From contig JACKKX010000005.1 in NCBI GenBank assembly GCA_024236215.1, forward strand, positions 248,001 through 312,000: a stretch of DNA of 64,000 nt, given 5' to 3'. Positions within the stretch are counted from its first letter, which is position 1; every line of letters begins with the position of its first letter. The DNA is from Novosphingobium sp. Lineage in GTDB: Bacteria; Pseudomonadota; Alphaproteobacteria; Sphingomonadales; Sphingomonadaceae. The notes beneath the pieces are model-generated. The model was not told where the DNA came from and made no database searches. It saw nothing but the letters and a program-made list of their open reading frames with translations. The position numbers and the translations under genes are program-made. Positions 48,939-64,000 of the stretch are shown here, one piece after another.

Positions 48939-50053
48939 CCCTGCGCAGCCGCATCCCCGAAGCGATCGCGCGCGAGCCCTGGCATGTGATCGTGCCGTTG
49001 TTCGCGCTTAACACTTTCGGTTCGGCAGTGCTCTATTCGGCGGCCGGCGGGAAACTTTCACCCTGGGCGCTGCTGCATGAAATCCACTTTGCGGTATTCC
49101 TGGTCATGGCGCTGGTGATCTCGCGGCTGCCGCGCGAGTTGTTCCAGCTGCTCGCCTATCCGGGCTATGGACTGCTGATCGTGATGCTGGTGCTGGTCGA
49201 GCTGATCGGCGGGATTGGCGGTGGCAGCCAGCGCTGGCTTGACCTTGGCTTCATGACGCTCCAGCCTTCGGAGCTGATGAAGCCGGGGATCGTGCTGGTC
49301 CTCGCGCGGTTTTTTGAAACACTCCCCCCCAGCATGACCCGCAGCTGGCGTACCTTGCTGCCACTGGGCGGCCTGGTGGCTGTTCCCGCCGGGCTGGTCA
49401 TGCTCCAGCCGGATCTCGGCACCGGCCTTGCCATCTGCGCCGGGGCGGCGGTGGTCATCTTCCTTGCCGGATTGCCGACATCGTGGTTCGTCGGCGCGGG
49501 CGCGGCCGGCGCGGCGATTGCCCCGGTCGCCTTCTTCACCCTGCTCCACGATTACCAACGCAAACGCGTGCTGACTTTCCTCGATCCGGAAAGCGACCCG
49601 CTCGGCACCGGCTATCACATCACCCAGTCGAAGATCGCGATCGGTTCGGGCGGGTTCTTCGGCAAGGGTTTCGGCAACGGCAGCCAGAGCCACCTCGAAT
49701 ACCTGCCCGAGGCCCATACCGACTTCGCTTTCGCCACCATGGCCGAGGAATGGGGCATGCTGGGCGGGCTGTTCGTGATCGCGATCTTCATGTGGGTGCT
49801 GCGCTGGGGCCTGCAGGTCGCCCGCAATGCCCCCGATCGCTTCTCGATGCTGCTCGCCGCGGGGATGACCTTTACGATCTTTTTCTACATGGCGATCAAC
49901 ATGATGATGGTGATGGGCCTGGCCCCGGTGGTGGGCATCCCCCTGCCCTGGATCAGCCACGGCGGCTCATCGATGATGACCAACATGATCTGCGTCGGCA
50001 CGATCATGGCAGTCGAGCGCTGGAGCCGTCGCGGTGGATCGCTGGCCGGGTGA
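48935..50053 (+). CDS. rodA: Rod shape-determining protein RodA
   Basis: A 372-residue SEDS glycosyltransferase. The membrane topology has about ten segments; conserved text is GGSQRWLDLGFMTLQPSELMKP, AHTDFAFATMAEEWGMLGG, and PLPWISHGGSSMMTNMICVG. RodA polymerises lipid II with PBP2. It ends the mre operon, overlapping mrdA by ATGA. Confidence 0.96.
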   Translation: MTLRSRIPEAIAREPWHVIVPLFALNTFGSAVLYSAAGGKLSPWALLHEIHFAVFLVMALVISRLPRELFQLLAYPGYGLLIVMLVLVELIGGIGGGSQRWLDLGFMTLQPSELMKPGIVLVLARFFETLPPSMTRSWRTLLPLGGLVAVPAGLVMLQPDLGTGLAICAGAAVVIFLAGLPTSWFVGAGAAGAAIAPVAFFTLLHDYQRKRVLTFLDPESDPLGTGYHITQSKIAIGSGGFFGKGFGNGSQSHLEYLPEAHTDFAFATMAEEWGMLGGLFVIAIFMWVLRWGLQVARNAPDRFSMLLAAGMTFTIFFYMAINMMMVMGLAPVVGIPLPWISHGGSSMMTNMICVGTIMAVERWSRRGGSLAG

Positions 50054-50608: not shown

Positions 50609-51223
50609 TCACGACACCCGAGAACCAATCCAGATCACTTTGCCGACGACATTGATCGCCTTTCGCTGAACACCGTTCCAGCTTGGATAAGCGGGATGGT
50701 CGGTGAGGACAGAAATGCGATTTTTGGTCGGGTCCAGAGCGATCCGCCTGACGAACGTCTCTGACGATCCACGGACAGCGTAGAGCCCGTCGTGAAGGGC
50801 ATCGTGAGAGCGCAACCTTTGGATAATGACTTCGTCGCCGCTCTGCAGGGTCGGCTGCATAGCCTCACCAGCAATGGGTAAGATCGCCAAACCTGGAGGC
50901 CTATTGCATAGGCGTCTTAGCCAAGCTTCATCGACGATGCGAGATCGTTCCTGTGGGATTTCCAGGCCCTTGGCCTCGATTACCGGCACAGTGATGACCG
51001 AACGTCGCGGAGTTGAAGAACTCTCTTTTCCGCCGAGCAGTTTGCCAGAAACATCGAAATGCAAAGCCAGCTGAGCGATGTCGCTTTGATCGAGACGCGC
51101 GGGCGTGCCGCGCTTGATGTATTGCTGGATATAGGCGGAGTTTCGGCCAAGCAGACGCGAAACCGCGGCGTAGGTCTCTTCCCGCTCGCGGATCAAATCA
51201 TCAAGCGCTTGCCTTGGGGTCAT
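50609..51223 (-). CDS. S24/LexA-like repressor with degenerate catalytic residues
   Basis: A 204-residue protein with an N-terminal HTH (residues 1-60; MTPRQALDDLIREREETYAA, SRLLGRNSAYIQQYIKRGTP) and a C-terminal S24 fold. The start at 51223 follows TAGGAG. In family members the catalytic Ser lies in GDSM(E/Q)PTL and the Lys in VKR(I/L); here the text is GEAMQPTLQSGDE (Ala121) and FVRRIAL (Arg159), so both catalytic positions are substituted. It should not self-cleave on RecA contact. It may act as a constitutive or ligand-controlled repressor. Confidence 0.88.
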   Translation of the reverse strand: MTPRQALDDLIREREETYAAVSRLLGRNSAYIQQYIKRGTPARLDQSDIAQLALHFDVSGKLLGGKESSSTPRRSVITVPVIEAKGLEIPQERSRIVDEAWLRRLCNRPPGLAILPIAGEAMQPTLQSGDEVIIQRLRSHDALHDGLYAVRGSSETFVRRIALDPTKNRISVLTDHPAYPSWNGVQRKAINVVGKVIWIGSRVS

Positions 51224-51249
51224 CCTATCCACTCCTAGCATATCCTATT

Positions 51250-52530
51250 TCACTATCACGCCAGAGCGGACAATTCCTACTCGGCGAGTTGCGCGGGCCA
51301 ACCTAGGTTGGGCTTTTTGGACAGGTTTCGAAGGAGGCGCTGGTTGGCTTATCAGCACTACTGGGTGGGGCTCGATGCGGGGCATCTCGAAACAGCCGTT
51401 TGCCTCATCGACGCAGAGGGCGGGATCCTCTTCGAAGCGATATGCGAAACGACATCTGGACCCATCAGAGATATTCTGCGGAGGTTTGGCGTTGAGGCAG
51501 CGCAGTGCCTCACGATCGAGGCCGGCAATGGCACCCAGATGGTTCGAGAACTGCGTTCATACGGATTTCCTGTTCAGGTGGTCGATGTACGCAAATCGAG
51601 CAAATTCCTGGCGATCAGGCGGCAGAAAACAGATGTCCACGATGCTCGAGGGCTCGCTGAGCTCGGGCGGCTTGGTCGATCGATAGGGTCGCCAGTCTTT
51701 GTGAAGCCAATGGAGCATCAGAATATCCGAACCCTGATCAATGTTCGAAGAACAATGCTGAAAAACCGCGCCAGGACAGATGCGCTCATCCAATCGATTT
51801 TCAGGTTACACGGCGGGAACGTGAAACTCCTGAACGGAAGGGGTGCGCTGGCCGCTGAGGTGAACGACCAGGTGCGGAAAATGCGACAGCACGGGCTTGA
51901 AATCGGGGTCAATCTGCAACCGCTCGTCGACATTTCCGAGGCTCTGAGAGAGCAAATCTCCGCTCTTGACCGGCAGATGCGCGACATCGCATCGAACAAT
52001 CTTACGTGCCGCAATTTCCAGACGATCCCCGGCGTCGGAGCTGTGATCGCGCTGTCGTTCTACAGTGCCATCGGCGATCCACATCGATTTGAGCGGAGCC
52101 GTGACGTTGGAGCATACTTGGGTCTGACCCCGACCCTATATCAGTCAGGCGCCACTTCACGCCGGGGGCGTATCAGTCGGCACGGGAATAAGCTCACACG
52201 GATGCACCTGATTACCGCAGCCACCGTGCTACTTTGCAGGATTGAGATCGAAAGCCGTCTTCGCACCTGGGGTCTCGAGCTGGCCCAGCGGGTTGGGTTC
52301 CTGAAGGCGCGCGTTGCCGTAGCAAGGAAGCTTGCGGTGATCATGCTCGGAATGTGGAAAACAGGTTCGCCGTTTCGCCCAGACGGCGCACCTTCGCTGT
52401 TCCTCCAGCAGGAGGAGGCAGGCTTGGACCCCGTTCTGATTTCTGGGACGCAGATCTCGTTGTAGGTAATTGGGCCAAGCCTGCCGTCAATTGCGGCGGT
52501 CGTTTCAGCCAGCGGCTCGTAATGTCGCAA
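51250..52530 (+). mobile_element. IS110-family insertion sequence (ends approximate)
   Basis: The element is defined by its transposase gene (51344-52465). Ends are not resolved: members of this family have no flanking inverted repeats and make no reliable target duplication. A perfect 14-bp palindrome CCAACCTAGGTTGG lies at 51299-51312 in the left noncoding part. The left end must lie right of the repressor start (51223) and the right end left of a start-codon context at 52541. Confidence 0.55.
51344..52465 (+). CDS. IS110 family transposase
   Basis: A 373-residue DEDD transposase starting at TTG 51344, seven bases after AAGGAGG. The RuvC-like catalytic tetrad is complete: D11 (VGLDAG), E59 (TIEAGNG), D97 and D100 (QKTDVHDARG). 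The C-terminal transposase_20 domain has TIPGVGAVIAL and the conserved serine region SGATSRRGRISRHGN. The gene appears intact, so the element may be active. IS110 enzymes are guided by a noncoding bridge RNA from one flank. Confidence 0.93.
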   Translation: MAYQHYWVGLDAGHLETAVCLIDAEGGILFEAICETTSGPIRDILRRFGVEAAQCLTIEAGNGTQMVRELRSYGFPVQVVDVRKSSKFLAIRRQKTDVHDARGLAELGRLGRSIGSPVFVKPMEHQNIRTLINVRRTMLKNRARTDALIQSIFRLHGGNVKLLNGRGALAAEVNDQVRKMRQHGLEIGVNLQPLVDISEALREQISALDRQMRDIASNNLTCRNFQTIPGVGAVIALSFYSAIGDPHRFERSRDVGAYLGLTPTLYQSGATSRRGRISRHGNKLTRMHLITAATVLLCRIEIESRLRTWGLELAQRVGFLKARVAVARKLAVIMLGMWKTGSPFRPDGAPSLFLQQEEAGLDPVLISGTQISL

Positions 52531-52565
52531 ACTTGCATCATTATCCCCTGAAACAGCGTTACGGT

Positions 52566-52582
52566 GTCAAAATTGACGCATC
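52566..52582 (-). promoter_or_regulatory. Island motif, copy 1 (24 nt before an ATG at 52541)
   Basis: Read on the minus strand: GATGCGTCAATTTTGAC. Exactly 24 nt separate it from an ATG ending at 52541. The reading frame beyond that ATG soon runs into the IS110 element, so this copy seems to precede a truncated gene. See copies 2 to 4. Confidence 0.6.
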
Positions 52583-52650
52583 ACGATCCTATCTCGACCA
52601 TGATAAAACCGGTGGGCTTTTGAGCCGCGCCGCAAAGCGATTGCCGGACG

Positions 52651-54114
52651 TTAGCGTGAGACCGGAATTAAGGGGAAAGCCAACTTTCGGGCGAGCGCCT
52701 CAATTTCGTCGCGCCAAGCTAACTTCTCCTGCCATGACTGACGAATAGTCGAGGCTCCGTAGATGGCACCAGCCAACTGGCCAGTGATTGCCGCAGTGGT
52801 GTCTGCATCGTCACCAAGGTTGGCTGCCAGCAACACCGCATCATCGAAGTTATCGGTATTCGCCACACACCAGATTGCCGCTTCGAGGCTGTGAGCCACG
52901 AAGCCGCTGCTCGAAATTTGATCTCGCGTCTTCTCGCGCCAACTGCCAGCGACAATGGGCCCGATTACGGGGCCGTATGATCCGCGAGCATTTTCCAGTG
53001 CACTATCGAAATCTGCGCCGAGAATCGCCGCTCGCAGCATGATCGCATAAACTTCGCACGCTTCAAGACATGCATCGGCCGCGTGGGTAGTCATACTCTG
53101 CCGACGCGCCACTCGTGTCATCACCGCAGGATCAGCCCCGATGCCCCAGACCGCGACCGGCGCCAGCCTCATCAGAGATCCATTTCCTGCTGAATGGGGA
53201 TCGTCCGAACCGGAAATCGGATCCCCGCTCTGTTCAAAACGCGAGAGTGCTTGGCGGGTGGTAATCCCGATATCGAAGCAGTTGCCCGTGGGGCTGTAGG
53301 CCCCGTTCTTCCACCATTCGACAAATCGACGTTGTGCTTCTTGCGGCTCAAAGATTGAGTCCTTGGCCGCACTAGCCAGAAGAGCGTCCCCGAGAGCAAG
53401 AGCCATCGAGGTATCATCAGTCCAAGTGCCCGCGTCCAGACCGAACGGCCCTCCCCCGACCATATCGGTGATGTGGTCATAGCTATCGCGAGGCTTGAAC
53501 TCGAGCGTCGTCCCCAAGGCGTCTCCGACTGCCAAACCGATCAGACATCCACAGGCACGATCGTACACGCGCCAAAGCGCGTGCAAATGGTTCTCCTGCG
53601 TCCTGGTTTCGATGGCCCCAGGCCGAACCTCTCGTACTCGCGCAATCGCGCTAGCGGCGTCAGCTTCGCCTAGTTCGATAAGCAGCCTCGCTGCTACCGT
53701 TCCCGCCCTGCCGAGACCGCCCCGGCAATGGATGAAAACGCTTCGCCCTTCTGCAAGAATACCCCTCACGCGAGGCCCAGCGGATCGCCATCGTTGCTCG
53801 AATTCATCACCGGGTGCGGCAACATCAACAATTGGCAGATGAAGCCACTCCATGCCGCGAGCGGTCACTTCCGCTTCCAACTTGGAAACGCCAAGGAATT
53901 CGATCTCATGATCCTCGATTAGAGAGATAACTGCGGCGGCTCCCCAGTCGCGCACCGCGTCCAAGTCAACAGTGAGATCGCGCATCCAATCGAACCCGGC
54001 AAGCGCCGGCCCCCGCTTACCCGGACAGAACGATACTCCAATTCGCCCGGTCGCTACTGACAGCGTCGGGATCTGGATAGGGTCGGTTAAGCTGGTCCGA
54101 ATGTTTCTACTCAT
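52651..54114 (-). CDS. Fusion: dual-specificity-type phosphatase and ADP-ribosylglycohydrolase
   Basis: A 487-residue two-domain protein. Residues about 15-180 form a CDKN3/DSP-like phosphatase with the P-loop HCRGGLGRAG (C130, R136) and a candidate general acid in the LPIVDVAAPGDEF loop. Residues about 185-485 form a DraG-type ADP-ribosylglycohydrolase: GLAVGDALGTTLEF, TWTDDTSMALA (231-235 metal binding) and NLGDDADTTAAITG. It may remove ADP-ribose and phosphate groups from a modified target. Motif copy 2 lies 24 nt upstream. Role in the island is unknown; defence-related NAD or nucleic-acid modification turnover is possible. Confidence 0.88.
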   Translation of the reverse strand: MSRNIRTSLTDPIQIPTLSVATGRIGVSFCPGKRGPALAGFDWMRDLTVDLDAVRDWGAAAVISLIEDHEIEFLGVSKLEAEVTARGMEWLHLPIVDVAAPGDEFEQRWRSAGPRVRGILAEGRSVFIHCRGGLGRAGTVAARLLIELGEADAASAIARVREVRPGAIETRTQENHLHALWRVYDRACGCLIGLAVGDALGTTLEFKPRDSYDHITDMVGGGPFGLDAGTWTDDTSMALALGDALLASAAKDSIFEPQEAQRRFVEWWKNGAYSPTGNCFDIGITTRQALSRFEQSGDPISGSDDPHSAGNGSLMRLAPVAVWGIGADPAVMTRVARRQSMTTHAADACLEACEVYAIMLRAAILGADFDSALENARGSYGPVIGPIVAGSWREKTRDQISSSGFVAHSLEAAIWCVANTDNFDDAVLLAANLGDDADTTAAITGQLAGAIYGASTIRQSWQEKLAWRDEIEALARKLAFPLIPVSR

Positions 54115-54138
54115 CGTGCCTGACTAATTCCTACGTAC

Positions 54139-54156
54139 GACAAAATTGGCCGCATC
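54139..54156 (-). promoter_or_regulatory. Island motif, copy 2 (24 nt before the ATG of the fusion gene)
   Basis: Minus-strand sequence GATGCGGCCAATTTTGTC, 24 nt before the start codon at 54114. Confidence 0.65.
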
Positions 54157-54233
54157 TGAGCGTCTTGCGCATCAAGCAACACCCGGGAATGCGTAGGCCT
54201 CGAGCCAAACCCCAAACCAAGCCGGAATAATCT

Positions 54234-54244
54234 GTGCGTCCACC
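54234..54244. repeat. 11-bp copy of the tRNA-Lys 3' end (candidate att remnant)
   Basis: GTGCGTCCACC equals 50208-50218, the tRNA acceptor-stem 3' strand, in the same orientation. It lies in an intergenic gap, directly at the end of the neighbouring minus-strand gene. It may be an attR left by integration at the tRNA; 11 bp is short, so chance is not excluded. Confidence 0.4.
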
Positions 54245-54984
54245 TATGGCTCGAACTTCCTTCGCAATGCCTCCGCATGCGCAGCAACCGCAGGAGTTTT
54301 GGCAGGCGATGCGAACCGCATCAGCCATTCTGACCAGCTAGCCGCAGCAAATCGGACACGGGCGCCGCTTACCGCAACGGAGAAGGCTTCTATTTCCGCC
54401 CGGTGCTCCGAACGCGCGGAGGCTGACACCCGCGAAGGCTCGGCAAAAAGATAGAACAAGACCGGCGCGCGGCTGATCCGCCCGGCTTCAGTTACCAGCC
54501 CGAATGCATGCTTCACGAGCTGGGCAGCATCGAGATAACGGAAATGTGACGGCTCCGATCTCAAGCGATCACGCATAGCGCACCACGGATCCATTGCTTC
54601 TCCCCACACATCGCGGTCGTACGCATTGGAGAGGACAACATGTTTCGTGTCGCGAAATGGTTCGAAACGCTTGGATTCTACGCCGATGAGGCAACTCTCG
54701 GTGACAACAGCAGCATCAAGCCAGGGGTGACGACCGCCATTCCAGGGAAAGCGCATCTGTCGTTCAATCTCGACCGACATGGGCGACCATTCGATATCAT
54801 CAAGGTTTGGAAAAGGTGGGAGTAAGGCTGGCCTTTCGATGAACCAGCCGAACCCATTAACGGCCAAAGCGGCGCTACTTTCAGGGCTTGCGAATTTGCC
54901 CGAAGCCAGTTCGTTACCACCTGCCCTGTCTAACGCTTGGCGCACGAGGTTCTCAGGGACACCCGATAGGAATAATTCACTCAT
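54244..54984 (-). CDS. PD-(D/E)XK nuclease-like hypothetical protein
   Basis: A 246-residue protein of no named family that I recognise with certainty. The central segment HPWLDAAVVTESCLIGVESK has the geometry of a PD-(D/E)XK active site: D90, then E103-S-K105 on a predicted adjacent strand. Similar proteins are annotated as PGN_0703-like putative restriction endonucleases. Motif copy 3 lies exactly 24 nt upstream of the ATG, suggesting it is a single gene under that element. Confidence 0.65.
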   Translation of the reverse strand: MSELFLSGVPENLVRQALDRAGGNELASGKFASPESSAALAVNGFGWFIERPALLPPFPNLDDIEWSPMSVEIERQMRFPWNGGRHPWLDAAVVTESCLIGVESKRFEPFRDTKHVVLSNAYDRDVWGEAMDPWCAMRDRLRSEPSHFRYLDAAQLVKHAFGLVTEAGRISRAPVLFYLFAEPSRVSASARSEHRAEIEAFSVAVSGARVRFAAASWSEWLMRFASPAKTPAVAAHAEALRRKFEP

Positions 54985-55008
54985 GATCTCGTACTAGCCT
55001 GAAAATGC

Positions 55009-55026
55009 GTCAAAATTGGTCGCATG
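55009..55026 (-). promoter_or_regulatory. Island motif, copy 3 (24 nt before the nuclease-like gene)
   Basis: Minus-strand sequence CATGCGACCAATTTTGAC, 24 nt before the start at 54984. With its flanks (ATGCG...CGCAT, 55005-55025) it is an imperfect 21-bp dyad. Confidence 0.65.
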
Positions 55027-55117
55027 ATCAAAACCTGCAGCCAGCTGTAAGACTGAATTCGATCCAACTCTAACTATCCCCAGACAGAGCATTGATGTAT
55101 CGCAAGCTCACGATCAC

Positions 55118-55696
55118 TTACCGATACTCGATCAACTGCACTTCTCTGGCTGTGAGTTGCGACATCAAGGCGTCGATGCCTGCCGCCAGTTCACAGTCGA
55201 ACATCTCCCTCGAAACGATGCCCGCTCCATTTCGTATCCAGGCCCTTTCAGCGCGAAAGTCGGCTAGCGATTGATGGACAGCTATCTCCTTCGCCCCGGC
55301 ATGATCTGCCCAGACAGTCAGGCAAATCTGCCAGTCCCACGCTCCGCCGTATCCTTCGAGATTCGCGATGTAGATTCGATTATCCGGATCATCCCCAGAG
55401 AAGCCGACCTTGATCAGACCCAAATCCGCTGACTTAGCGAGATAGAGGTAGCCCGACATTTCGCTGCGACGAGCAAAGGCGATCGATGCCGGAAAACATT
55501 CGATGCATGTCCCGTATCGATTGCGCAATGAATGCCCGTTGTGACATTTAGTCACACCGTAAGCCACGAACTTCCCCTCAGCCTTCATCCGAGGTCGATA
55601 TTCAGCGCGCTTCAAACCCGAGGCATCAAAAGTTTCGTCGACGTCAATCCCGTGATGCTCGAGATAGCGCAGATGCGCTTTAGTCAGACGAGCCAA
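55118..55696 (-). CDS. GIY-YIG nuclease with zinc finger (Mug113/T5orf172-like)
   Basis: A 192-residue protein, start TTG 55696. Residues 51-67 form a zinc-knuckle-like motif (C51, H55, C64, C67 in CHNGHSLRNRYGTCIEC). The GIY-YIG domain starts at GYLYLAKSADLGLIKVGFSG (82-101) and continues through EIAVHQSLADFRAERAWI, with a possible general base in the second strand. Such domains nick or cleave DNA; many occur in phages and mobile islands. No obvious partner besides the neighbouring nucleases. Confidence 0.75.
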   Translation of the reverse strand: MARLTKAHLRYLEHHGIDVDETFDASGLKRAEYRPRMKAEGKFVAYGVTKCHNGHSLRNRYGTCIECFPASIAFARRSEMSGYLYLAKSADLGLIKVGFSGDDPDNRIYIANLEGYGGAWDWQICLTVWADHAGAKEIAVHQSLADFRAERAWIRNGAGIVSREMFDCELAAGIDALMSQLTAREVQLIEYR

Positions 55697-55768
55697 TAGT
55701 GATACTCCAGCTTCAAGGCGCAGCCCCGCAGGGCTAGGTCAAACAGGCGTAGAGCAGAGCCAAGGCTT

Positions 55769-56545
55769 TCATGCAGGCTTTGCCCTCTTGGATTTCGCTT
55801 TGCTTACCTGCCCAGAGGGACAGACACGAACTTGTAGATGGCCGGTTTCAGTTCTTCGCGATTCGAAGCCCCCTGCAGTTTCAACCAAGTCGCTCAACTT
55901 GCCCTGACCATATGTTCTGGGATCAAAGTCGGAGGCAAGCGCAGCAAGCCGCTGCCCAACCCGACCTAAAGGCACCCAACCGCCTTCATCATCCAACTGC
56001 AAAATAGCGGTTCGGATCAAAGACATCGCAGCCGTCGGTGGCTTCTTAACGTTGGCTGGACGGGCATCCTGACGCTCTGGCTCATCTAACGCTGGCACCT
56101 CGGGCAGCAGATTTTCAGTGTAGATGAAGCGACGACATGCTTGTCGAAAGCTTTCTGGCGTTTTCTGCTCGCCAAACCCGTAGACATCGATGCCCTGTTC
56201 CCGGATGCGTGATGCCAAGCCCGTAAAGTCACTATCTGAAGATATGAGACAAAAGGCGTCAAACCGACCTGTGTGCAACAGGTCCATGGCGTCAATGACC
56301 AAGGCGATATCCGAGGCATTCTTCCCGCTTGTGTATGCAAAGCTTTGGTGCGCCTTGATCGCATGAGTTGCGAGCACCTCTGCCCAGGATTTCAGTCTGG
56401 TTCCGGAGAAATCCCCGTATATGCGCCGAACGCTTGCTTCACCGATCTTCGCTATCTCCTCAAAGAGACGGGGTGCGATCCGCGAGGAAGCGTTATCCGC
56501 ATCAATCAATACGGCAAGTCTAGGGGTGCGCTGTTCAGTAGCCAT
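55769..56545 (-). CDS. NYN domain (PIN-like) ribonuclease with C-terminal LOTUS/OST-HTH
   Basis: A 258-residue protein. The NYN domain (about 8-150, LabA-like) keeps its acidic residues: D15/D17 (LIDADNAS), D79/D85 (NASDIALVIDAMD) and D104/D106 (ISSDSDFTGL). The C-terminal domain (about 180-245; AAMSLIRTAILQLDDEGGW) matches OST-HTH/LOTUS RNA-binding modules. Bacterial NYN-LOTUS proteins are poorly characterised; RNA cleavage or sequestration is likely. It is in the minus-strand run of island genes. Confidence 0.85.
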   Translation of the reverse strand: MATEQRTPRLAVLIDADNASSRIAPRLFEEIAKIGEASVRRIYGDFSGTRLKSWAEVLATHAIKAHQSFAYTSGKNASDIALVIDAMDLLHTGRFDAFCLISSDSDFTGLASRIREQGIDVYGFGEQKTPESFRQACRRFIYTENLLPEVPALDEPERQDARPANVKKPPTAAMSLIRTAILQLDDEGGWVPLGRVGQRLAALASDFDPRTYGQGKLSDLVETAGGFESRRTETGHLQVRVCPSGQVSKAKSKRAKPA

Positions 56546-56587
56546 TTTCAGACATTGCCCTAAATCAGCTTTATCAAAAGATAAAAT

Positions 56588-57253
56588 TCAACCCGATGAT
56601 GACTTTGTCTGGAATTCCTGCAAGCGCCTCCTGACGATGACCTTGTCGGACGAAATCCTAAGCAAGCGCTTGGCTCTATCGTGGGCAAATTCATCGACCC
56701 CAAGGACTATGAGTGTGATGCCGTTCAGCGGCAACAATTCGCGGCGGCGCGCGTCATAACGTCGGCGCTGCTCTCCGCGGGGAACTCCAGAGACAGTCGG
56801 CTTGTCATCGAAAAAGCCGACACGTTCTTTGTGCTGACGCTCGTGATATTCGACGACAAGCCTTAGTTCCGGATAAAAGCCATCGACCGGTAAAGGCCTT
56901 CGGTTCCCGCGCAGATCGGGATCTCCGGTAAGAAACGGAAAGCAATGCTGACGCACGGCCTTCATCCCGAGAAACTCATCGCAAAGGTCGAGAACATATT
57001 GCTCGTCGCGGACAGACACCCTTGGCTTCGCGTCAAAGGCCTTCTTGACCGACCGAAAGTTTGAAGGCTCTCCGCATAACCTCGCCATGACATTTTCCAT
57101 GTCTGCGTGTTGACTGCTCCCGCGCATGACCTCCCAGCGGCCATTGTGCGAATGCCAACCGAGTCCCGCAGCTCGAAGGGCAGCGCGAAACCGCTTTGGA
57201 TCTACACCGTTGGCATTCGCCATCTCGACGGCGGTAATCAGTTGATCTGACAT
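56588..57253 (-). CDS. Putative Vsr/DUF559-like endonuclease with N-terminal HTH
   Basis: A 221-residue protein. Residues 1-45 look like a small HTH (VDPKRFRAALRAAGLGWHSH). The second half has the PD-(D/E)XK-like line LPVDGFYPELRLVVEYHERQ (D124, E135), then FFDDKPTVSGVPRGEQRRRY, as in very-short-patch-repair and DUF559 nucleases, followed by a conserved arginine cluster (YDARRRELLPLNGI). It probably cuts DNA. It lies 19 bp downstream of the M15-like gene. Confidence 0.7.
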   Translation of the reverse strand: MSDQLITAVEMANANGVDPKRFRAALRAAGLGWHSHNGRWEVMRGSSQHADMENVMARLCGEPSNFRSVKKAFDAKPRVSVRDEQYVLDLCDEFLGMKAVRQHCFPFLTGDPDLRGNRRPLPVDGFYPELRLVVEYHERQHKERVGFFDDKPTVSGVPRGEQRRRYDARRRELLPLNGITLIVLGVDEFAHDRAKRLLRISSDKVIVRRRLQEFQTKSSSG

Positions 57254-57272
57254 TTTGCTGCCCAGTCATTCA

Positions 57273-57920
57273 TCACGCGAGCCCGCTGACCATTGCTGCT
57301 TCAATGCCAGCCCAGTCCTGCTCGTGCGATCCTGAATTATTCGGCATCCCAGCCTTGGTTAAACAGCCCTTGGGATTGGTGTAACTGTCGATCCGACGTT
57401 CCGGCTCCTCCCGCCAAGCTATGTTCACCGCCCAAAACTTCGGAAAAAAATAGAGGCTTGAATAGGGCAAATGGTCGTGGATCCACCAGGCAAGCTTTCG
57501 CCAATCACCTTCATTCTGAAATGCATCCCAGAACGCCGGAACTACGACGCACGCCGTTGCCCCCATTCGCCCCGCCGAATCCCGACGATCCCAAATGTGG
57601 CCAGCGAAATTGGCATCGTTCGAAGCGCAGTTATATCCGCCTTTTCCTGCTACTTGCATCTCATTGCCCAGCCCGTTGACTTCGCACGAGCGAAAAGCAG
57701 ATCGGACAGCGATGCGGCCGAACCGATCCTGCAAGGGTTCAAGCAGTTCTTCACAGAGCCTGCTTCCTGCCGCGATAGCCAGGTCAGGATCATCAGGTAC
57801 ATTGTTTAGCCCGTGAACGGCTGCAATGTCGGAGAATAGGAAATCCCGCATGAAGAACGACTTCGACAGCCGAACGCGACCAAAGTCAGCGAGCTTAGAT
57901 ACAGAATCGGGCTTTCTCAT
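57273..57920 (-). CDS. M15/hedgehog-like peptidase domain protein
   Basis: A 215-residue protein resembling the D-Ala-D-Ala-metallopeptidase fold: IAVRSAFRSCEVNGLGNEMQ recalls the SGYRS..N of M15, and HIWDRRDSAGRMGATACVVV and LAWWIHDHLPYSSLYFFPKF hold potential zinc-binding His and Asp residues. No signal peptide is present, so a wall-lysis role is unlikely unless released with a phage or tail. Motif copy 4 lies 24 nt upstream of the ATG. Confidence 0.6.
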   Translation of the reverse strand: MRKPDSVSKLADFGRVRLSKSFFMRDFLFSDIAAVHGLNNVPDDPDLAIAAGSRLCEELLEPLQDRFGRIAVRSAFRSCEVNGLGNEMQVAGKGGYNCASNDANFAGHIWDRRDSAGRMGATACVVVPAFWDAFQNEGDWRKLAWWIHDHLPYSSLYFFPKFWAVNIAWREEPERRIDSYTNPKGCLTKAGMPNNSGSHEQDWAGIEAAMVSGLA

Positions 57921-57944
57921 AGGATCGGCCTATCGTCATTATGC

Positions 57945-57961
57945 GTCAAAAGCGGTCGTAG
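57945..57961 (-). promoter_or_regulatory. Island motif, copy 4 (24 nt before the M15-like gene)
   Basis: Minus-strand sequence CTACGACCGCTTTTGAC, 24 nt before the start at 57920. It is the most divergent copy. Confidence 0.55.
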
Positions 57962-58078: not shown

Positions 58079-58711
58079 ATGTCACTAAGTCGTCTGCGCA
58101 ATATCGTGCACCTCGCTGTGCCCACGCTTTTTCGCCAGATCAGTGGGGGACGAGTACGATGCGAAAGCGAGGCAACTCTTCAGCTACACCTCGGACGCAT
58201 AATTTCGTCGGCCGCCGATCTCGAGATTATCAGCGAGCGGGAGACATTTTCTGTCGAACTAGAAAAGCCGCTGCGGAGCAATGGCGGCAAGCGAGGGCGG
58301 ATCGACGTTTGGTTTCGACTTACAGACGGTGATGGCCGCGAATGGCGTTGTGCAATCGAGCTCAAGTTTTTCAAACGGGAAAATCACCGCGAACCAAACA
58401 ATCGCTACGACGTGTTCAAGGACATCGCCAGGCTAGAGCAGTGCGCAGATGTCGCGGATCTAGGGTTCATGTTGGTGGCGACCGATCATCGACATTATGT
58501 CGACCAGACAAGCTACTCCAGCGACACGAGCGATTTCGATTTTCGCCATGGGCGAGAGTATGCAGGAGGAACCGCCCTTACCTACAAGACCGGCGCGTAT
58601 GGGCCACCGATTACCCTCGCTGGGAATTATGCGTTTGGCTGGTCAGAGTGCAGCTCCGCGCTCCCGTACTTGCTAGTCGAGGTTCCCCCGATCCGGCTTG
58701 GCCCCGCCTGA
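58079..58711 (+). CDS. PD-(D/E)XK restriction-like hypothetical protein
   Basis: A 210-residue protein on the plus strand, convergent to the helicase operon (29 bp apart). The core reads E31 (ESEATLQLHLGRI), D76 (GRIDVWFR) and E94-L-K96 (CAIELKFFK), the pattern of a complete restriction-endonuclease-like active site. No DNA-recognition domain is apparent. It may be a separate nuclease or an accessory of the neighbouring operon. AGGATGAG precedes the ATG as a possible ribosome-binding site. Confidence 0.75.
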   Translation: MSLSRLRNIVHLAVPTLFRQISGGRVRCESEATLQLHLGRIISSAADLEIISERETFSVELEKPLRSNGGKRGRIDVWFRLTDGDGREWRCAIELKFFKRENHREPNNRYDVFKDIARLEQCADVADLGFMLVATDHRHYVDQTSYSSDTSDFDFRHGREYAGGTALTYKTGAYGPPITLAGNYAFGWSECSSALPYLLVEVPPIRLGPA

Positions 58712-58740: not shown

Positions 58741-61700
58741 TCACGGTTCGAGCTTGATCTGCAATTCTTCGAGAGCAGCCACGTCGACGCCCTCGTCAAC
58801 GAGACGGTCAAGATAGGCCAGCAGGTCGTCTTGCCGCGGCTGCCCAAATGCCAGCCGATAGAGTGTCAGGCTGCGTTTGAGCCAACGTAGCCGCGTGTTT
58901 TCTCGACTCATGGGTAGCATTGGTACGCGGCGCTCGACCTTTACCGGACCATCAAAAACCCAGTACGGAACAAGTTCGGATTTGCTCGTGGTAGCGCGTT
59001 TGGCCGCGTTGAACATCGCCTCCCATGGGTCTGCCGGTGGCTTTGTAGACGTGCGGATTGCATCGGCATGAGCTCTGGCAACATTATGCCGGACCGCATG
59101 TCCTTTGAACCGGTGAACACGCCCTTCCCTTTGCTCAAGATCGACCGGGTTCCCTGGGAGATTCCAATGATAGACTCGATAGCAATAGGGGTGAAAATCC
59201 AAGCCTTCCTGACCGATCGATGTCGTGGCCAGCACAAATGGTCTGAAAGGCGAATTGAACGCATCTCGCACGCTTCCGAGCCGCACGGTTCCGCCTTCCT
59301 CGTCCTTGTATTCAGCTAATCGCATAGCGAAGCGACCGCGCATCCTGATGGACGGATGAAAGACGACCTTGCCGTCCTCAACTCCCACATCATCGACATC
59401 AATCTGGGAGGGGCGGACTGACAAGGCGTGGGTCATGGCCGCGGCCACGCCGGCGACACGTTCACGCTCGGAGCTCCCGGCCAAACCCTCGCCTTCGACA
59501 AGATAATGGGCGTACTCGTCGAGCACTGACTGGAGGTTGTGCTCGACACCATGCGTCAATGCGCTGCGCCAGTAATGGTCATCGCGCTCTTGCCGTAGGA
59601 GAGCAACGGCGTCGTGCTGATTGAAGAGCGCCCGAAAACCCCAAGCGATTGATGCCGCGGCGTCCATCAAATGCGGATCATCCCACGCCAGTCCTGGCGC
59701 AATGCGATGGAGCGCGCGCAATGCACAGACAGCCGGACTTCCCAAGGCTACATCGACCAGTAGATCCAGCGTGTCGTTGTCGAGCTCCCCGAGCGATGCC
59801 TCGGTTGCAGTCCTCCGCAACTCGGCGATGTGCTCTCGAAAGCCTTCCTCCTGGATCGTCCATCTGTAACCGAGATACTGCAGCCACCCGGAAGATTTGG
59901 TCTTCAACAATACGTCGATCGTTGCCGGTGTGGACCATTCTGCATCCCTGCCAGCTGCTTCTTCGCCATTTTCCTTGGCGAACAGGTGCCCCAGGGCAGT
60001 ACGAATACGATCCGCAATCGCTGCGCGCATTTCTTCAACCGACAATTGTTCCGGAGCGCCAGAAAAGACGCTTAACGGATCACAGATTCTGGCCAGTGTT
60101 GGTGACGGATAGATCAGGTGCAGCGCGCGCATCGCAGCCGGGCGACCATCTACCAGCTTGAACTGAAGCGGACGGCGGCGCGTGGCTTCCGAGTAGGACC
60201 GAACCACCGACGCTGCCCCCATCCGCCGTTCGGCTTCGTAGGAAAGCAGTGCGGCAAGCGCATCGGGCACCATCTGCCATGCAGAAAAGACAAGCGCTTT
60301 CGTAGCCGGTGTGCCCTCAGATGCCGGGCCATAATATGTTACCGCCGGGGGAAGCCAGAGGTGCTGATGGAGCCCTGAATCAAACAAATCAGCCATCAAT
60401 GCTCGAAGGCGCCCATTAGCCGGATCAATCGGCTGATAAGCTTCGACCTGTTCGCGACTGATGCCCAGCGCCTGCGCATCGCTCAACGCTGATATCAGGG
60501 CCGGGTTCGAATTTGCGGCTTTATCCTTCAGGCGATGCTTTAGCGTGTAATCACGCATAAAATTCAGGAGGTAAGGTGCGGACTTCCAATACTCGATGAT
60601 TTCGCGCGCATCGACGGCTCGCGCGACGCGGGCAAACGCTTCGGCCTGATGAAGATCGGCAGGTGCGAGCGGCACGTTGATCGATGGCTCAGCCAGCATC
60701 GAATCTCGTTCAGCAGTACTGCCAACGCGCTCGGTGCGCGCCATAACGCGCTTCAGTGTACGCTGAACCTTGTTGCGCGCGCGCTTGGCGTCGGTCGCGC
60801 TTGTCGGCAGTTGCTGGAGTAGCTTACGAAAGCGGCGCATTTCGCGGTCAAGTTCGACCTTGATGGTCGCCCCCTTATCGCGCCCGTAGAGGAACTCGAT
60901 TGTTTCAAGGAAGTCCTCGTAATGATCGCCGTCATCAGGCTCATCGCCCGAGAGCGTGAGCATCTTGTAGGGAGTTGCGGAGAGTAGAAGGGTGCGTGCG
61001 CTGGCTGTATCGTCAGAATAGTCAAACAGGGCCCTTGCGAGCTCGGCCGGCTCCCCCTCACCGCGCAGCAATTCCCGAAAACGTTGGAATTCGTCGAGGA
61101 TGATAAGATCTGGCTTAAGCGCACTGACGCAAGCGTGCGATAGCTTGCTCCGTAGCGCCCCGATTACCTCGTTTCGTTTCCAACGCTTCTCGTCAGGGTA
61201 TGTTGGCTGGCGGCGCGGGAACAGCGAGATCATTTCGTCGATTGCCGACAACAGCGATGCATCTTGACGGACTGCGTCGTGGAAGTTCGAAACTATCGTC
61301 GGATCAATACCCTCAAGTGACATGCTACCGACGCACGCATCCCAGCGTCCATTCCCGGCGTCCACTTGCAGCGCGTTTCTGAGCGGCGTGAACGAAAAGC
61401 CCATGGCTTCAAGCAGGCGATGCAAGAGCGCCCGTTCTTCAACGACCCCGGTGGTAGATCGAAGATTGAACGTGGTTCCAGGCGTGAGGCTGATGAAATT
61501 GACCTTGTTCGCAGACAGATCTTGTTCGCCGCGAAGCTGCAATGGCACCAAGGTCATGCGAGTGGGCAAGGCCATCGCACGCTTTCCCAATACATTGAGA
61601 CGATTGAGATTTTGCGCGGCGATGGCCTGATTGGAGCAGATGTAAAGAATGTCGATCCGCTTTGATCGATTCCACAACGCTTCGATGGTCTTGGCGATCA

Positions 61701-61866
61701 CCCCGCGGGCAACCATGGTTTTGCCCAGACCCACTTCGTCTGCGACCAGGAACTGACGCACGGGATCAGCGCCATGCAAACGGTCGAACACATACTCTAC
61801 CGTGCGACGCTGAAAGCGCTTGAGTTGAGCGAGTGCGGCGCCCGCGTCGAACGGCTCATTCTCCAT
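58741..61866 (-). CDS. SF2 helicase of a PLD/helicase restriction-like operon
   Basis: A 1041-residue SNF2/SF2-type helicase. Walker A is DEVGLGKT (43-50), Walker B DEFQ (258-261), motif III SATP (296-299). In the C-terminal RecA domain there are ATTSIGQEGLDFHPYCY and motif VI QREGRVHR (about 912-919). A large insertion separates the two cores. Its start overlaps the PLD gene by 11 bp, so the proteins are made together. A role as translocase for the adjacent nuclease-like PLD is likely by comparison with other PLD/helicase defence modules. Confidence 0.9.
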   Translation of the reverse strand: MENEPFDAGAALAQLKRFQRRTVEYVFDRLHGADPVRQFLVADEVGLGKTMVARGVIAKTIEALWNRSKRIDILYICSNQAIAAQNLNRLNVLGKRAMALPTRMTLVPLQLRGEQDLSANKVNFISLTPGTTFNLRSTTGVVEERALLHRLLEAMGFSFTPLRNALQVDAGNGRWDACVGSMSLEGIDPTIVSNFHDAVRQDASLLSAIDEMISLFPRRQPTYPDEKRWKRNEVIGALRSKLSHACVSALKPDLIILDEFQRFRELLRGEGEPAELARALFDYSDDTASARTLLLSATPYKMLTLSGDEPDDGDHYEDFLETIEFLYGRDKGATIKVELDREMRRFRKLLQQLPTSATDAKRARNKVQRTLKRVMARTERVGSTAERDSMLAEPSINVPLAPADLHQAEAFARVARAVDAREIIEYWKSAPYLLNFMRDYTLKHRLKDKAANSNPALISALSDAQALGISREQVEAYQPIDPANGRLRALMADLFDSGLHQHLWLPPAVTYYGPASEGTPATKALVFSAWQMVPDALAALLSYEAERRMGAASVVRSYSEATRRRPLQFKLVDGRPAAMRALHLIYPSPTLARICDPLSVFSGAPEQLSVEEMRAAIADRIRTALGHLFAKENGEEAAGRDAEWSTPATIDVLLKTKSSGWLQYLGYRWTIQEEGFREHIAELRRTATEASLGELDNDTLDLLVDVALGSPAVCALRALHRIAPGLAWDDPHLMDAAASIAWGFRALFNQHDAVALLRQERDDHYWRSALTHGVEHNLQSVLDEYAHYLVEGEGLAGSSERERVAGVAAAMTHALSVRPSQIDVDDVGVEDGKVVFHPSIRMRGRFAMRLAEYKDEEGGTVRLGSVRDAFNSPFRPFVLATTSIGQEGLDFHPYCYRVYHWNLPGNPVDLEQREGRVHRFKGHAVRHNVARAHADAIRTSTKPPADPWEAMFNAAKRATTSKSELVPYWVFDGPVKVERRVPMLPMSRENTRLRWLKRSLTLYRLAFGQPRQDDLLAYLDRLVDEGVDVAALEELQIKLEP

Positions 61867-63703
61867 TGCCGGACTCCTCCAGTACGGCGCGGAATGTCTG
61901 CCAGAGAACCCGAAACTCTTCGGGTATTGGGTCTGCGCCTTCCGTATTTGCCTCTGTTAGCCTGGTCATCAGACGATCGACCGCATCCAGGCGCCCATCC
62001 TTGGCGCAAAGGGCCCGGACGAGTTCCTCGAGTAACGGCTCATCGTCGGCCACGGCCATGGCCCACCCTGCCCCACTGCCGCTTCCATCGGCAGCTAATG
62101 CCGCCGCAAACGGATCACCGAGTGCGGTGAGCAAGAGCCTCAAATAGCGCAGGAATGTTTTGCGATCATTGATCACCGATCGCATAATCGCTGCGTCGCG
62201 CTCGGCCGGTAGGCCCTCAATCGGCAAGCCGGTGCTAAAAAGGACGCTTTGACCGGTTGCCCGTTCCTTCATTTCAATCGCCAGAAAACGTGTGACATCG
62301 GCGAGCGCAACCACACCCAAGTCCAAAGCCTCACCGGCTTCCAGTGATGCCTGGGCATCCCTGGAGTGCCCTTCCCCTCGGGTTATCGGCCAAACCCGCA
62401 CTCGGTTGATGTTCGCAAGTGCAATGCCTCCAGCAGGCGGAATTAGCCACATGCGCCAATTGCCTGGGCCCTCGGTCACGTCTGCTTCACAACGGATGCT
62501 GAGGCATCCGCGGGCAAGTGCCCGCCGGGCATCAAGGAGCACCCTTTCAGCAGCACGCTCGGAGGCGTCAGCAGCAGCCAATTCTCCTGGAACGTAAGCA
62601 CGAGTGAGACGCCCGAACCCGTTCTCGCCGAGAATGGCCTCGATCGACCCCAGCTTTGACGTCTTACCCGTGAACGTGATGAAGAACTCGACATTTCGCC
62701 CTGAGATGAACGCGGGTTTAGTCGCATTGCCGGAGCCTAAGGTCAGACGGGTATCCCAGCTGTGCTCAGCGACAATTATCTTGGCGTGGAGCCCTTCCAA
62801 AGCTCCCGAAATAGCTTCCTCGCCATCTTCACGCTCGGCCATTTCATCCAGAACCGCGACATGTGCGAAATCGTCGAGTGTTTCGGCAGCTATGCAGGCA
62901 AGCTGATCGGGCCTGCTTATCAAGATTTCGGCGGAGCGGCGCGCCTTTCCAGCCAACATCGATAACGCGTCATCGTCGCAAAATGGCGAGACCACACCGA
63001 TGCGCGTGCATTCCGGCGGCTGCCAAGGCCGTCCTCCCAGCCCGTTGACTGCGAACTCAAATTTTTCACAGGCATCGGGCAATGACCACTCGGCGTAGCG
63101 CATGTCTTCGGCGAGTTCCGAAGTGAGCGCCCGCTGCTCATCCGGGACCGGGCTGACCGCGAGATCTGGGAGCGCGGAGAGCAACGCGTACAACGGACGG
63201 TTCTGGGCCTTAGGCTGGCGAGTGCGGCGTCCGTCGAGACGCACGGCTATGTCCCATGACCTGTCGCGCGTAAGATTGCGTGACAATACGAGCACCCTGA
63301 GAACATCATCGCCCTCTTCGTCCAATGGCTTGAACCGCAGCGCCCAGATTTTCGGATGGAAGCTACCCTCTCCTGGCGCTTGGACTTCGACGATAACCTT
63401 CTCAAGCAACGAGCAAAGTCGAGATTGTTGGGCAAGCCCCGCATGGATTTGACCTGCCTCGGCGAAGACGGCCAAGCGCCCCGAAATCCGTTCTGCTCCC
63501 TCGAGCAGAGCAATAGGATGCTGCAGAATTTCCTCTCTATTGTCGGCGGCAAACAATGCCAGGCTGACCGGCACGGCTAGCGCCGTCTCAAAATCGAGTG
63601 AGAATGTCGTCGCCACGCCGGCATCGAAGCGATACCCGGGGGGAGCCTGAAGGCTATCGCCGTAGAGAAGCCGGTTTTCGGGATCGAGCGTCGCCCTGTT
63701 CAA
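61856..63703 (-). CDS. Phospholipase D-fold protein (two HxK motifs)
   Basis: A 615-residue protein. TTG 63703 is chosen as start because it overlaps the upstream stop (TTGA) and is preceded by GAAGGA; a longer reading from ATG 63781 would overlap the upstream gene by 82 bp. Two PLD half-sites are visible: FHPKIWAL with a later SRNL (H116, K118, N143) and LHAKIIVAE with GSGNAT (H306, K308, about 323-328). This is the arrangement of a PLD-type nuclease dimer in one chain. It lies between a DUF6361-like gene and the helicase. Confidence 0.85.
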   Translation of the reverse strand: MNRATLDPENRLLYGDSLQAPPGYRFDAGVATTFSLDFETALAVPVSLALFAADNREEILQHPIALLEGAERISGRLAVFAEAGQIHAGLAQQSRLCSLLEKVIVEVQAPGEGSFHPKIWALRFKPLDEEGDDVLRVLVLSRNLTRDRSWDIAVRLDGRRTRQPKAQNRPLYALLSALPDLAVSPVPDEQRALTSELAEDMRYAEWSLPDACEKFEFAVNGLGGRPWQPPECTRIGVVSPFCDDDALSMLAGKARRSAEILISRPDQLACIAAETLDDFAHVAVLDEMAEREDGEEAISGALEGLHAKIIVAEHSWDTRLTLGSGNATKPAFISGRNVEFFITFTGKTSKLGSIEAILGENGFGRLTRAYVPGELAAADASERAAERVLLDARRALARGCLSIRCEADVTEGPGNWRMWLIPPAGGIALANINRVRVWPITRGEGHSRDAQASLEAGEALDLGVVALADVTRFLAIEMKERATGQSVLFSTGLPIEGLPAERDAAIMRSVINDRKTFLRYLRLLLTALGDPFAAALAADGSGSGAGWAMAVADDEPLLEELVRALCAKDGRLDAVDRLMTRLTEANTEGADPIPEEFRVLWQTFRAVLEESGNGE

Positions 63704-64000
63704 CGCTTGAGATCCTTCAGATGGCTCTGTGCGATTGACCAGCGAAACTGAAGCCTTCCAGTTCCGGATGCTCCTTGCCAACGGTCCCGCGCACTCTTGT
63801 TTGCAAACCGGGATTGCCCCTTCTTGAGCCTCCTCTCACGCGTCATGACGAGCGCGCTTGCTGCGTCACGATTGCGGCCTAATCCTCCCTCCTTCCGCAC
63901 CAAGGCCACCCATTCGGTGACAAACCGCTTGGCCGGTTCGAGGACCGAATGTCCGGTATGACGTGTCTCGTGCCAGAAATCGTCCAGCGACCAGGATGCC
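63700..64000 (-). CDS. DUF6361-like protein, C-terminal part (starts beyond the window)
   Basis: The last 99 codons of a gene running in from the right edge. The end reads EWVALVRKEGGLGRNRDAAS, then MTRERRLKKGQSRFANKSAR and WQGASGTGRLQFRWSIAQSH. From memory this matches the C-terminus of DUF6361 proteins, which are often encoded beside PLD and helicase genes. It is coupled to the PLD gene by TTGA. Identity rests on the C-terminus only. Confidence 0.65.
   Translation of the reverse strand, partial: ASWSLDDFWHETRHTGHSVLEPAKRFVTEWVALVRKEGGLGRNRDAASALVMTRERRLKKGQSRFANKSARDRWQGASGTGRLQFRWSIAQSHLKDLKR

Follow-up and report, generated by a model that had tools for sequence, protein, structure and literature searches.

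A minus-strand motif in a Novosphingobium genome is, with a probability that we put at about 0.82, the operator of a DriD-family WYL activator encoded on the same genomic island, where it would form part of DriD-type promoters that give leaderless mRNAs. The motif lies in a window of 64,000 bases, positions 248001-312000 of contig C5 of the 3.08-Mb genome. An initial annotation of this window had listed four copies, each exactly 24 nucleotides (nt) from the end of TTTTG(A/T)C to an ATG, and all four were present with that spacing. The reading is carried by the identity of the box, its clustering at DriD-family genes, the register of the −10 element, an excess of start codons at 24 nt and the conserved recognition-helix residues of the regulator.

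The box and its copies

In Caulobacter crescentus, the WYL activator DriD recognises the operator ATACGAC(X)7GTCGTAT and is stimulated by single-stranded DNA (ssDNA); at its promoters, the site lies at a constant distance from the −10 element, over a poor −35 region (accessible text of PMC12340889). In our window, the pattern TRCGAC-N7-GWCGYA was matched exactly by copies 3 and 4 and with one mismatch by copy 2, and these were the only sites with at most one mismatch. Exact matches were also given by copies 5 and 6, found on this strand outside the window. The stricter form TACGAC-N7-GTCGTA left 2, 3, 2, 1 and 2 mismatches in copies 2 to 6, respectively. At up to one mismatch, the rest of the contig (C5:312001-339195) held copies 5 and 6, a reversed site at 319888-319906 and a stray match at 338154. 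The 21-mer ATGCGACCAATTTTGACGCAT was matched exactly in copy 3 only (55005-55025), with four mismatches each in copies 2 and 4.

Copies 2, 3 and 4 are genuine. Copy 1, in contrast, has no box (at least six mismatches at N7), and we rejected it as a member: its half-sites are 6 nt apart, the right half reads GACACC, and it lies outside the shared block described below. The open reading frame (ORF) behind it is 66 amino acids (aa) long here and stops after 12 codons in G006, a relative in which the flank is 92.9% identical. We also rejected copy 1 as the end of an IS110 element; it occurs once in the genome, megablast gave no plasmid match, and G006 has the same flank.

The 24-nt distance is retained beside homologous genes elsewhere. 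Homologues of the copy 2 gene keep it in G006 and, with one mismatch in the box, at locus L075; those of the copy 3 gene keep both box and distance in G006 and on a Qipengyuania citrea plasmid; those of the copy 4 gene keep it at L082 (exact box) and L075 (one mismatch). Behind copy 5, the ATG at 24 nt opens an ORF of only three codons, and the long ORF starts at 62 nt. For copy 6, the start codons of the long ORF lie at 13 and 40 nt.

A genome-wide search for the motif with a 24-nt spacer and ATG (0-1 mismatch) returned four matches, namely copies 2-5, and likewise four in the genome with the identical island. The 396 genomes searched gave 28 matches in 27 other genomes and seven for the reversed control. 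With up to three mismatches, TGCGWCNANTTTTGACGCA was not in excess in the whole genome (eight matches vs seven for the reversed control). Five of the eight lie on the minus strand of the island, one is copy 3 read backwards, and two are on contig C2. At this threshold, the clustering stands out and the number does not, because six of the eight matches are in the island and the control gave seven.

Copies 2-6 lie in a block of 24,050 bp, from window position 52614 through 64000 and on to C5:324663, that is 100% identical in N. hassiacum (G011). As this identity extends between two Novosphingobium species, the island must have moved very recently. The conjugation genes TraE, TrbI, TraC and TraU come after it on the contig. 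Viral contigs held no exact box with YA at nt 13-14 followed by ATG at 24 nt.

DriD-family genes, −10 register and start-codon distance

We scanned contigs with an alignment of the island WYL protein and a second DriD-family protein from contig C1. Of the 207 relatives that this yielded, the best 80 loci were retained, with boxes disregarded. These loci (1,514,318 bases, both strands) held 84 exact boxes. Scrambled patterns gave 4, 0, 0 and 1 matches, the N6 form 1 and the N8 form 3. With boxes sharing their 40 nt downstream removed, the 84 exact boxes became 80 rows, or 247 together with one-mismatch matches. After merging of both strands, 51 sites remained in 37 of the 80 loci, and 41 of the 51 were at most 120 bp from the WYL gene; 25 sites were located upstream, at a distance of up to 250 bp, and 16 at the stop codon of the gene. 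Across the order, exact TRCGACCNNTTYTGWCGYA occurred in 7 of 396 genomes (11 matches; control, 2). A DriD-like gene with at least 50% identity was present in six of these seven box genomes vs none of 31 box-less genomes (hypergeometric 2.5e-6), where the 31 are a non-random pick and two of the seven, the source and N. hassiacum, share one island.

The island protein aligned over residues 9-322 with solved DriD structures 9pfq and 8tp8 (E 1.8e-50 and 2.4e-50), its two best solved relatives. Recognition-helix residues R39, R40, E43, R44 and R46 were invariant in all 83 aligned DriD-family rows; these comprise 49 of Sphingomonadales type and 34 mostly from Caulobacterales, and the total counts the island protein as well as some rows that are identical. 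The four arginines are candidates for reading the guanines of the half-sites. In a quick tree with long branches, the 83 rows grouped apart from three other WYL proteins; three fragments shorter than 250 aa had been left out of alignment and tree. Y194, R210 and D212 of the WYL domain were invariant as well, and R213 was present in 49/49 and 29/34 rows of the two groups. These residues are no more than suggestive of ssDNA activation as in DriD. At L061:142-2043 on C1, the second protein, which is 54% identical, adjoins an McrBC component and has a one-mismatch box 44 nt upstream of its gene. The source genome hence has two DriD-type regulators, both in defence-like settings.

The site next to driD in Caulobacter serves the divergent operon, not driD (PMC12340889). 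Here, the reversed site upstream of the island WYL gene points away from that gene. As a side observation, the gene of an AAA ATPase (~690 aa, partial IetA match) is divergent at L074, L078 and L109 and begins 24 nt past such a box; at L071 and L073, the distance is 25 nt. This island lacks the gene.

We counted, for exact boxes, each ATG located 5-99 nt downstream that starts an ORF of 100 codons or more. Offset 24 had eight such starts, and the other offsets had a mean of 0.70 and a maximum of 5. Counted by sequence cluster, offset 24 had six, the others a mean of 0.49 and a maximum of 2 (Poisson p 1.3e-5). The six clusters are the WYL gene itself, an AAA ATPase (partial IetA match below the NCBIfam cut-off), the 215-aa family, REase-ARP, an HD_4 protein and a PDDEXK_4 nuclease. 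Allowing one mismatch added ADP-ribosylglycohydrolase (ADPRH) and a second PF22558 protein, which gave eight clusters vs a mean of 1.18 and a highest other count of 5; two of the eight share Pfam PF22558. When the ATG was absent from the query, two (G363 and G269) of five other box genomes had a gene at 24 nt.

In three Caulobacter DriD promoters (didA, bapE and CCNA_03891), the −10 element starts 12 nt past the downstream half-site, and nt 11 (−14) is a G; we assigned these hexamers ourselves from the promoter sequences given in PMC12340889. The same register appeared in 41 exact boxes with a CC...T core that had not been selected for an ATG: A at nt 14 in 30/41, C or T at nt 13 in 31/41, G at nt 11 in 22/41 and C at nt 24 in 20/41, with ATG at 24 nt in 11/41. 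Among the 22 rows of the 80 loci that have ATG at 24 nt, A occupied nt 14 in 16 (p 2e-6), G nt 11 in 14 (p 0.003), T or C nt 13 in 14 and C nt 24 in 10. The ATG-independent counts agree with a hand-made set of 22, island included, in which A stands at nt 14 in 19 and G at nt 11 in 15. That set combines 13 of the 24 rows with a start codon at 24 nt with our own copies 2-4, two sites of G006 and one each of Q. citrea, G269, G226 and G195. It omits 11 rows (two TTG starts, the WYL genes themselves, short ORFs and L107) and keeps the truncated-ORF homologues L097 and L106. Tests were run on 21 rows, G226 being left out. With one hand-picked row for each of nine families, two of which share PF22558, A at nt 14 was found in 8/9 (p 9e-5), T at nt 13 in 7/9 (p 4e-4) and G at nt 11 in 6/9 (p 0.04). 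Copy 5 has CA and copy 6 GA at nt 13-14.

A −10 element at −12 to −7 places +1 on the A of the ATG (12 + 6 + 6 = 24). The fixed distance is accounted for by the box-to-(−10) spacing together with a predicted start site on the ATG, and the promoters of copies 2-4 are predicted from this register to be leaderless. The single promoter/operator architecture and the short or leaderless transcripts of the initial annotation are both supported, the latter by the −10 register. Leaderless mRNAs are common in the class, with 375 reported for Caulobacter and 119 leaderless pairs of start site and gene for Zymomonas mobilis (accessible portions of PMC4117421 and PMC7566282).

In mechanistic terms, the −35 region would be covered by a dimer of the DriD-family protein bound to TRCGAC-N7-GWCGYA, with RNA polymerase using a weak −10 element that starts 12 nt past the downstream half-site. 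At many targets, the start codon would coincide with the resulting start site at 24 nt, giving a leaderless mRNA. By analogy with Caulobacter DriD, the activator would respond to ssDNA. The REase-ARP, ADPRH, 215-aa/NYN/T5orf172 and AddAB-like/ZacABC units may then be induced jointly when DNA is damaged or a phage attacks.

Counter-evidence and other explanations

Several observations weigh against this reading. With near-duplicates removed, 43 of the 80 DriD-family loci had no exact box. Conversely, G155 (exact box) and G226 (box, TATAAT and 24 nt, matched by a laxer pattern only) lack a DriD-like gene, and the two boxes at 24 nt in G006 are accompanied by no closer WYL protein than one with 27% identity. 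Since contig C65 of G006 ends less than 500 bp upstream of the AddA-like gene, loss of the regulator and an assembly gap are indistinguishable there. All three records of plasmid REase-ARP homologues were inspected, and an exact box with 24 nt was present in Qipengyuania and absent from Burkholderia and Porphyrobacter; for plasmid ADPRH homologues, we inspected 2 of 181 matching records (Roseomonas and Cereibacter). On the four plasmids other than that of Qipengyuania, the ADPRH or REase homologues had no box with at most one mismatch in the 300 nt upstream. Since C1 of the source genome carries another DriD-family gene, the acting protein could be either of the two.

Other points concern the distance itself, which differs at some box genes: it is 60-62 nt for AddB-like genes, 45 nt for a 1016-aa AAA_5 protein, 41-47 nt for others, and 13 or 40 nt for copy 6 and the homologue of its gene. 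The G269 nuclease starts at 24 nt, and two large nucleases 50-51% identical to it start at 41 nt. An ATG at 24 nt is absent from all three Caulobacter promoters used for comparison. C at −1 (nt 24) was present in four of nine families, which is not significant (p 0.12). The box genes starting at 41-62 nt and a Shine-Dalgarno-like tetramer before 6 of 21 starts would fit a view in which the box is right, the mRNAs have short leaders and the peak at 24 nt arose by chance in a few families. We regard this as unlikely, as 24 nt recurs in six exact-box clusters vs 0.49 elsewhere (8 vs 1.18 with one mismatch) and a −10 element at −12 to −7 fits a start on the ATG. Several box genes without the 24-nt distance retain the −10 register, so that such genes look leadered.

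The regulator itself might act in another way. CapW, a WYL regulator, is a repressor. BrxR, the WYL regulator of a BREX island, also represses from inverted repeats (partial text of PMC9122601), and the island protein could likewise block a promoter, with 24 nt as a compact spacing. Its two best solved relatives, however, are DriD, an activator; the box covers the −35 position; and a repressor requires no single phase to the −10 element, whereas one phase is common to 30 of the 41 boxes not selected for ATG. Repression is accordingly improbable in our view. More remote is binding by the S24-family protein named as a candidate repressor in the initial annotation. Its gene adjoins the island on the same strand, encodes a peptidase S24 domain and stands beside island genes in G006 too, but boxes occur in 37 of 80 loci chosen by the WYL protein alone, and the N. 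hassiacum block retains copies 2-6 and excludes the S24 gene. The motif corresponds to the consensus for DriD, and a WYL protein of the DriD family is encoded on the island. Between window positions 50000 and 52700, around the S24 gene, no box with at most one mismatch was found; the best site, with two, lies inside the region behind copy 1. Ordinary sigma-70 geometry is just as implausible an account: TTGAC resembles a −35 element, yet the −10 element follows TTGACG/TTGTCG by only 11 nt, too short a distance for sigma-70, and the upstream half-site is equally conserved and N6 and N8 forms are not enriched.

Other candidates were discarded. Comparison by eye with consensus sequences gave no match to attC/integron sites, dif/Xer sites or general-stress sigma promoters. 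An RNA hairpin was rejected on the grounds that both arms vary as half-sites of one palindrome. Our first reading, a PafBC-type promoter, was replaced by DriD on the published consensus.

Island genes and comparison with known systems

The activator reading assigns the island genes of Table 1 to units by strand and spacing. Copy 2 probably serves the phosphatase-ADPRH gene and copy 3 the REase-ARP gene. The putative copy-4 unit comprises the 215-aa, 221-aa, NYN-LOTUS and T5orf172 genes, and that of copy 5 the AddB-like PD-(D/E)XK, UvrD-PD-(D/E)XK, ZacA, ZacB and ZacC genes. The earlier regulon proposal is supported for the phosphatase-ADPRH, REase-ARP and 215-aa genes; copy 1 is no member. The M15-like label of the 215-aa protein was not upheld, with no Pfam match at E 0.1 and no NCBIfam match; its structure prediction had a mean pLDDT of 34.5, too low for use. 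The cargo consists of nuclease-, helicase- and ADPRH-like genes plus ZacABC, and the island extends past the window. The 210-aa plus-strand gene has no family match and no box with at most one mismatch in its direction. The IS110-family transposase gene stands between the S24 gene and the island, likewise in G006. At L022:3764-8010, G006 has two large ORFs from the AddA-like gene to REase-ARP that look, by eye, unlike Zac genes, which suggests that cargo between boxes may be swapped.

Table 1. Boxes, predicted −10 elements and genes in the window and on the adjoining part of contig C5
Feature	Position	Strand	Remarks
Copy 1, look-alike, not a DriD-type box	52563..52581	-	at best 6 mismatches at N7
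DriD-type box, copy 2 (TGCGGC-N7-GTCGTA)	54136..54154	-	1 mismatch; 24 nt to ATG
DriD-type box, copy 3 (TGCGAC-N7-GACGCA)	55006..55024	-	exact; 24 nt to ATG
DriD-type box, copy 4 (TACGAC-N7-GACGCA)	57942..57960	-	exact; 24 nt to ATG
Copy 5	contig C5:318832-318850	-	exact; beyond window; upstream of ZacA
Copy 6	contig C5:320734-320752	-	exact; beyond window
Predicted −10 TAGTCA, copy 2	54121..54126	-	predicted +1 = 54114, A of ATG; 12 nt after half-site
Predicted −10 TAGTAC, copy 3	54991..54996	-	predicted +1 = 54984
Predicted −10 TAGGCC, copy 4	57927..57932	-	predicted +1 = 57920
S24-family gene	50609-51241		
IS110-family transposase gene	51308-52465		
DSP-type phosphatase + ADP-ribosylglycohydrolase fusion, 487 aa	52651..54114	-	Pfam PF03747 E 7e-73, PF22784/PF22785
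REase-ARP protein, 246 aa	54244..54984	-	Pfam PF22558 E 2e-9
T5orf172-domain protein, 192 aa	55118..55696	-	Pfam PF10544 E 3e-5
NYN + OST-HTH/LOTUS protein, 258 aa	55769..56545	-	Pfam PF01936 E 5e-36, PF12872 E 4e-13
221-aa protein	56588..57253	-	next in copy-4 unit; no family found (Pfam, NCBIfam)
215-aa protein	57273..57920	-	behind copy 4; first gene of probable operon
210-aa protein	58079-58711	+	
ZacC helicase	58741..61866	-	distal gene of putative copy-5 unit; PADLOC ZacC, 1148 bits
ZacB	61856..63781	-	PADLOC ZacB E 6e-177
ZacA / DUF6361	63700..64000, on to contig C5:312890	-	PADLOC ZacA
UvrD/PD-(D/E)XK gene (AddA-like)			upstream of ZacA
PD-(D/E)XK gene (AddB-like)			upstream of ZacA
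DriD-family protein, WYL + WCX, 331 aa	contig C5:318831-319826		just outside window; upstream of ZacA; WYL, WCX over Pfam cut-off
Divergent AAA ATPase, other loci	L074:2706-4784; L109:7796-9868		

WYL regulators of defence systems, and DriD itself, are already known. In the open literature on DriD and phage, of which parts were available (PMC9122601, PMC12340889, PMC10693628, PMC4211646, PMC11804915, PMC12409362), we found neither a DriD-controlled defence island nor a leaderless DriD promoter, though other papers could hold them. Literature on leaderless transcripts, WYL proteins and Novosphingobium yielded nothing specific, and none was found for ZacABC under these names. A broader idea, which we put forward tentatively and consider rather less probable than its contrary, is that mobile defence islands throughout Sphingomonadales are widely controlled by DriD-family activators, which would act as a master switch triggered by ssDNA. 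The box would sit at the stop codon of the regulator gene or in its divergent upstream region, unrelated defence genes would be plugged in behind it with their start codon on +1, and captured genes would become damage-inducible and leaderless.

If true, leaderless translation may keep defence proteins being made while a phage disturbs normal initiation. An activator type that senses ssDNA outside the SOS response would be linked to phage defence; CapW and, in the available account, BrxR are repressors. From the rule of box, 12 nt, −10 element, 6 nt and ATG, the start site and the start codon can both be predicted, and inducible defence genes that have escaped annotation might be located with it. 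Two questions also become testable, namely whether the ssDNA that phages make turns defence islands on and whether leaderless mRNAs serve a purpose.

Among known systems, the closest is DriD of Caulobacter crescentus with its promoters didA, bapE, CCNA_03891/01149, dnaG and recJ. The half-sites, N7 spacer, 12-nt step from box to −10 element and G at nt 11 (three promoters) are shared, and so are the homologous protein and its identical recognition-helix residues. In contrast to Caulobacter, the putative targets here belong to a mobile defence island or are other cargo of the nuclease/ATPase kind, many of them start exactly at the predicted +1, and the regulator gene lies in the island beside its targets. 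As with CapW of CBASS and, judging from the accessible description, BrxR of BREX, a WYL regulator is encoded with phage-defence genes and has an inverted-repeat operator; unlike BrxR, which represses, the island protein is DriD-like and its box keeps one fixed phase to the −10 element. PafBC has a RecA-NDp motif with a similar TTGTC...TA register. The island regulator resembles PafBC as a WYL activator, but PafBC is a heterodimer with a non-palindromic site, whereas here one gene product faces a palindrome. In mycobacteria, PafBC is an ssDNA-activated WYL activator of DNA-damage promoters that works via sigma adaptation (available portion of PMC11804915). Finally, ZacA, ZacB and ZacC of the PADLOC ZacABC system were all matched; unlike that system, the genes here come after AddAB-like nuclease-helicase genes behind a DriD-type box.

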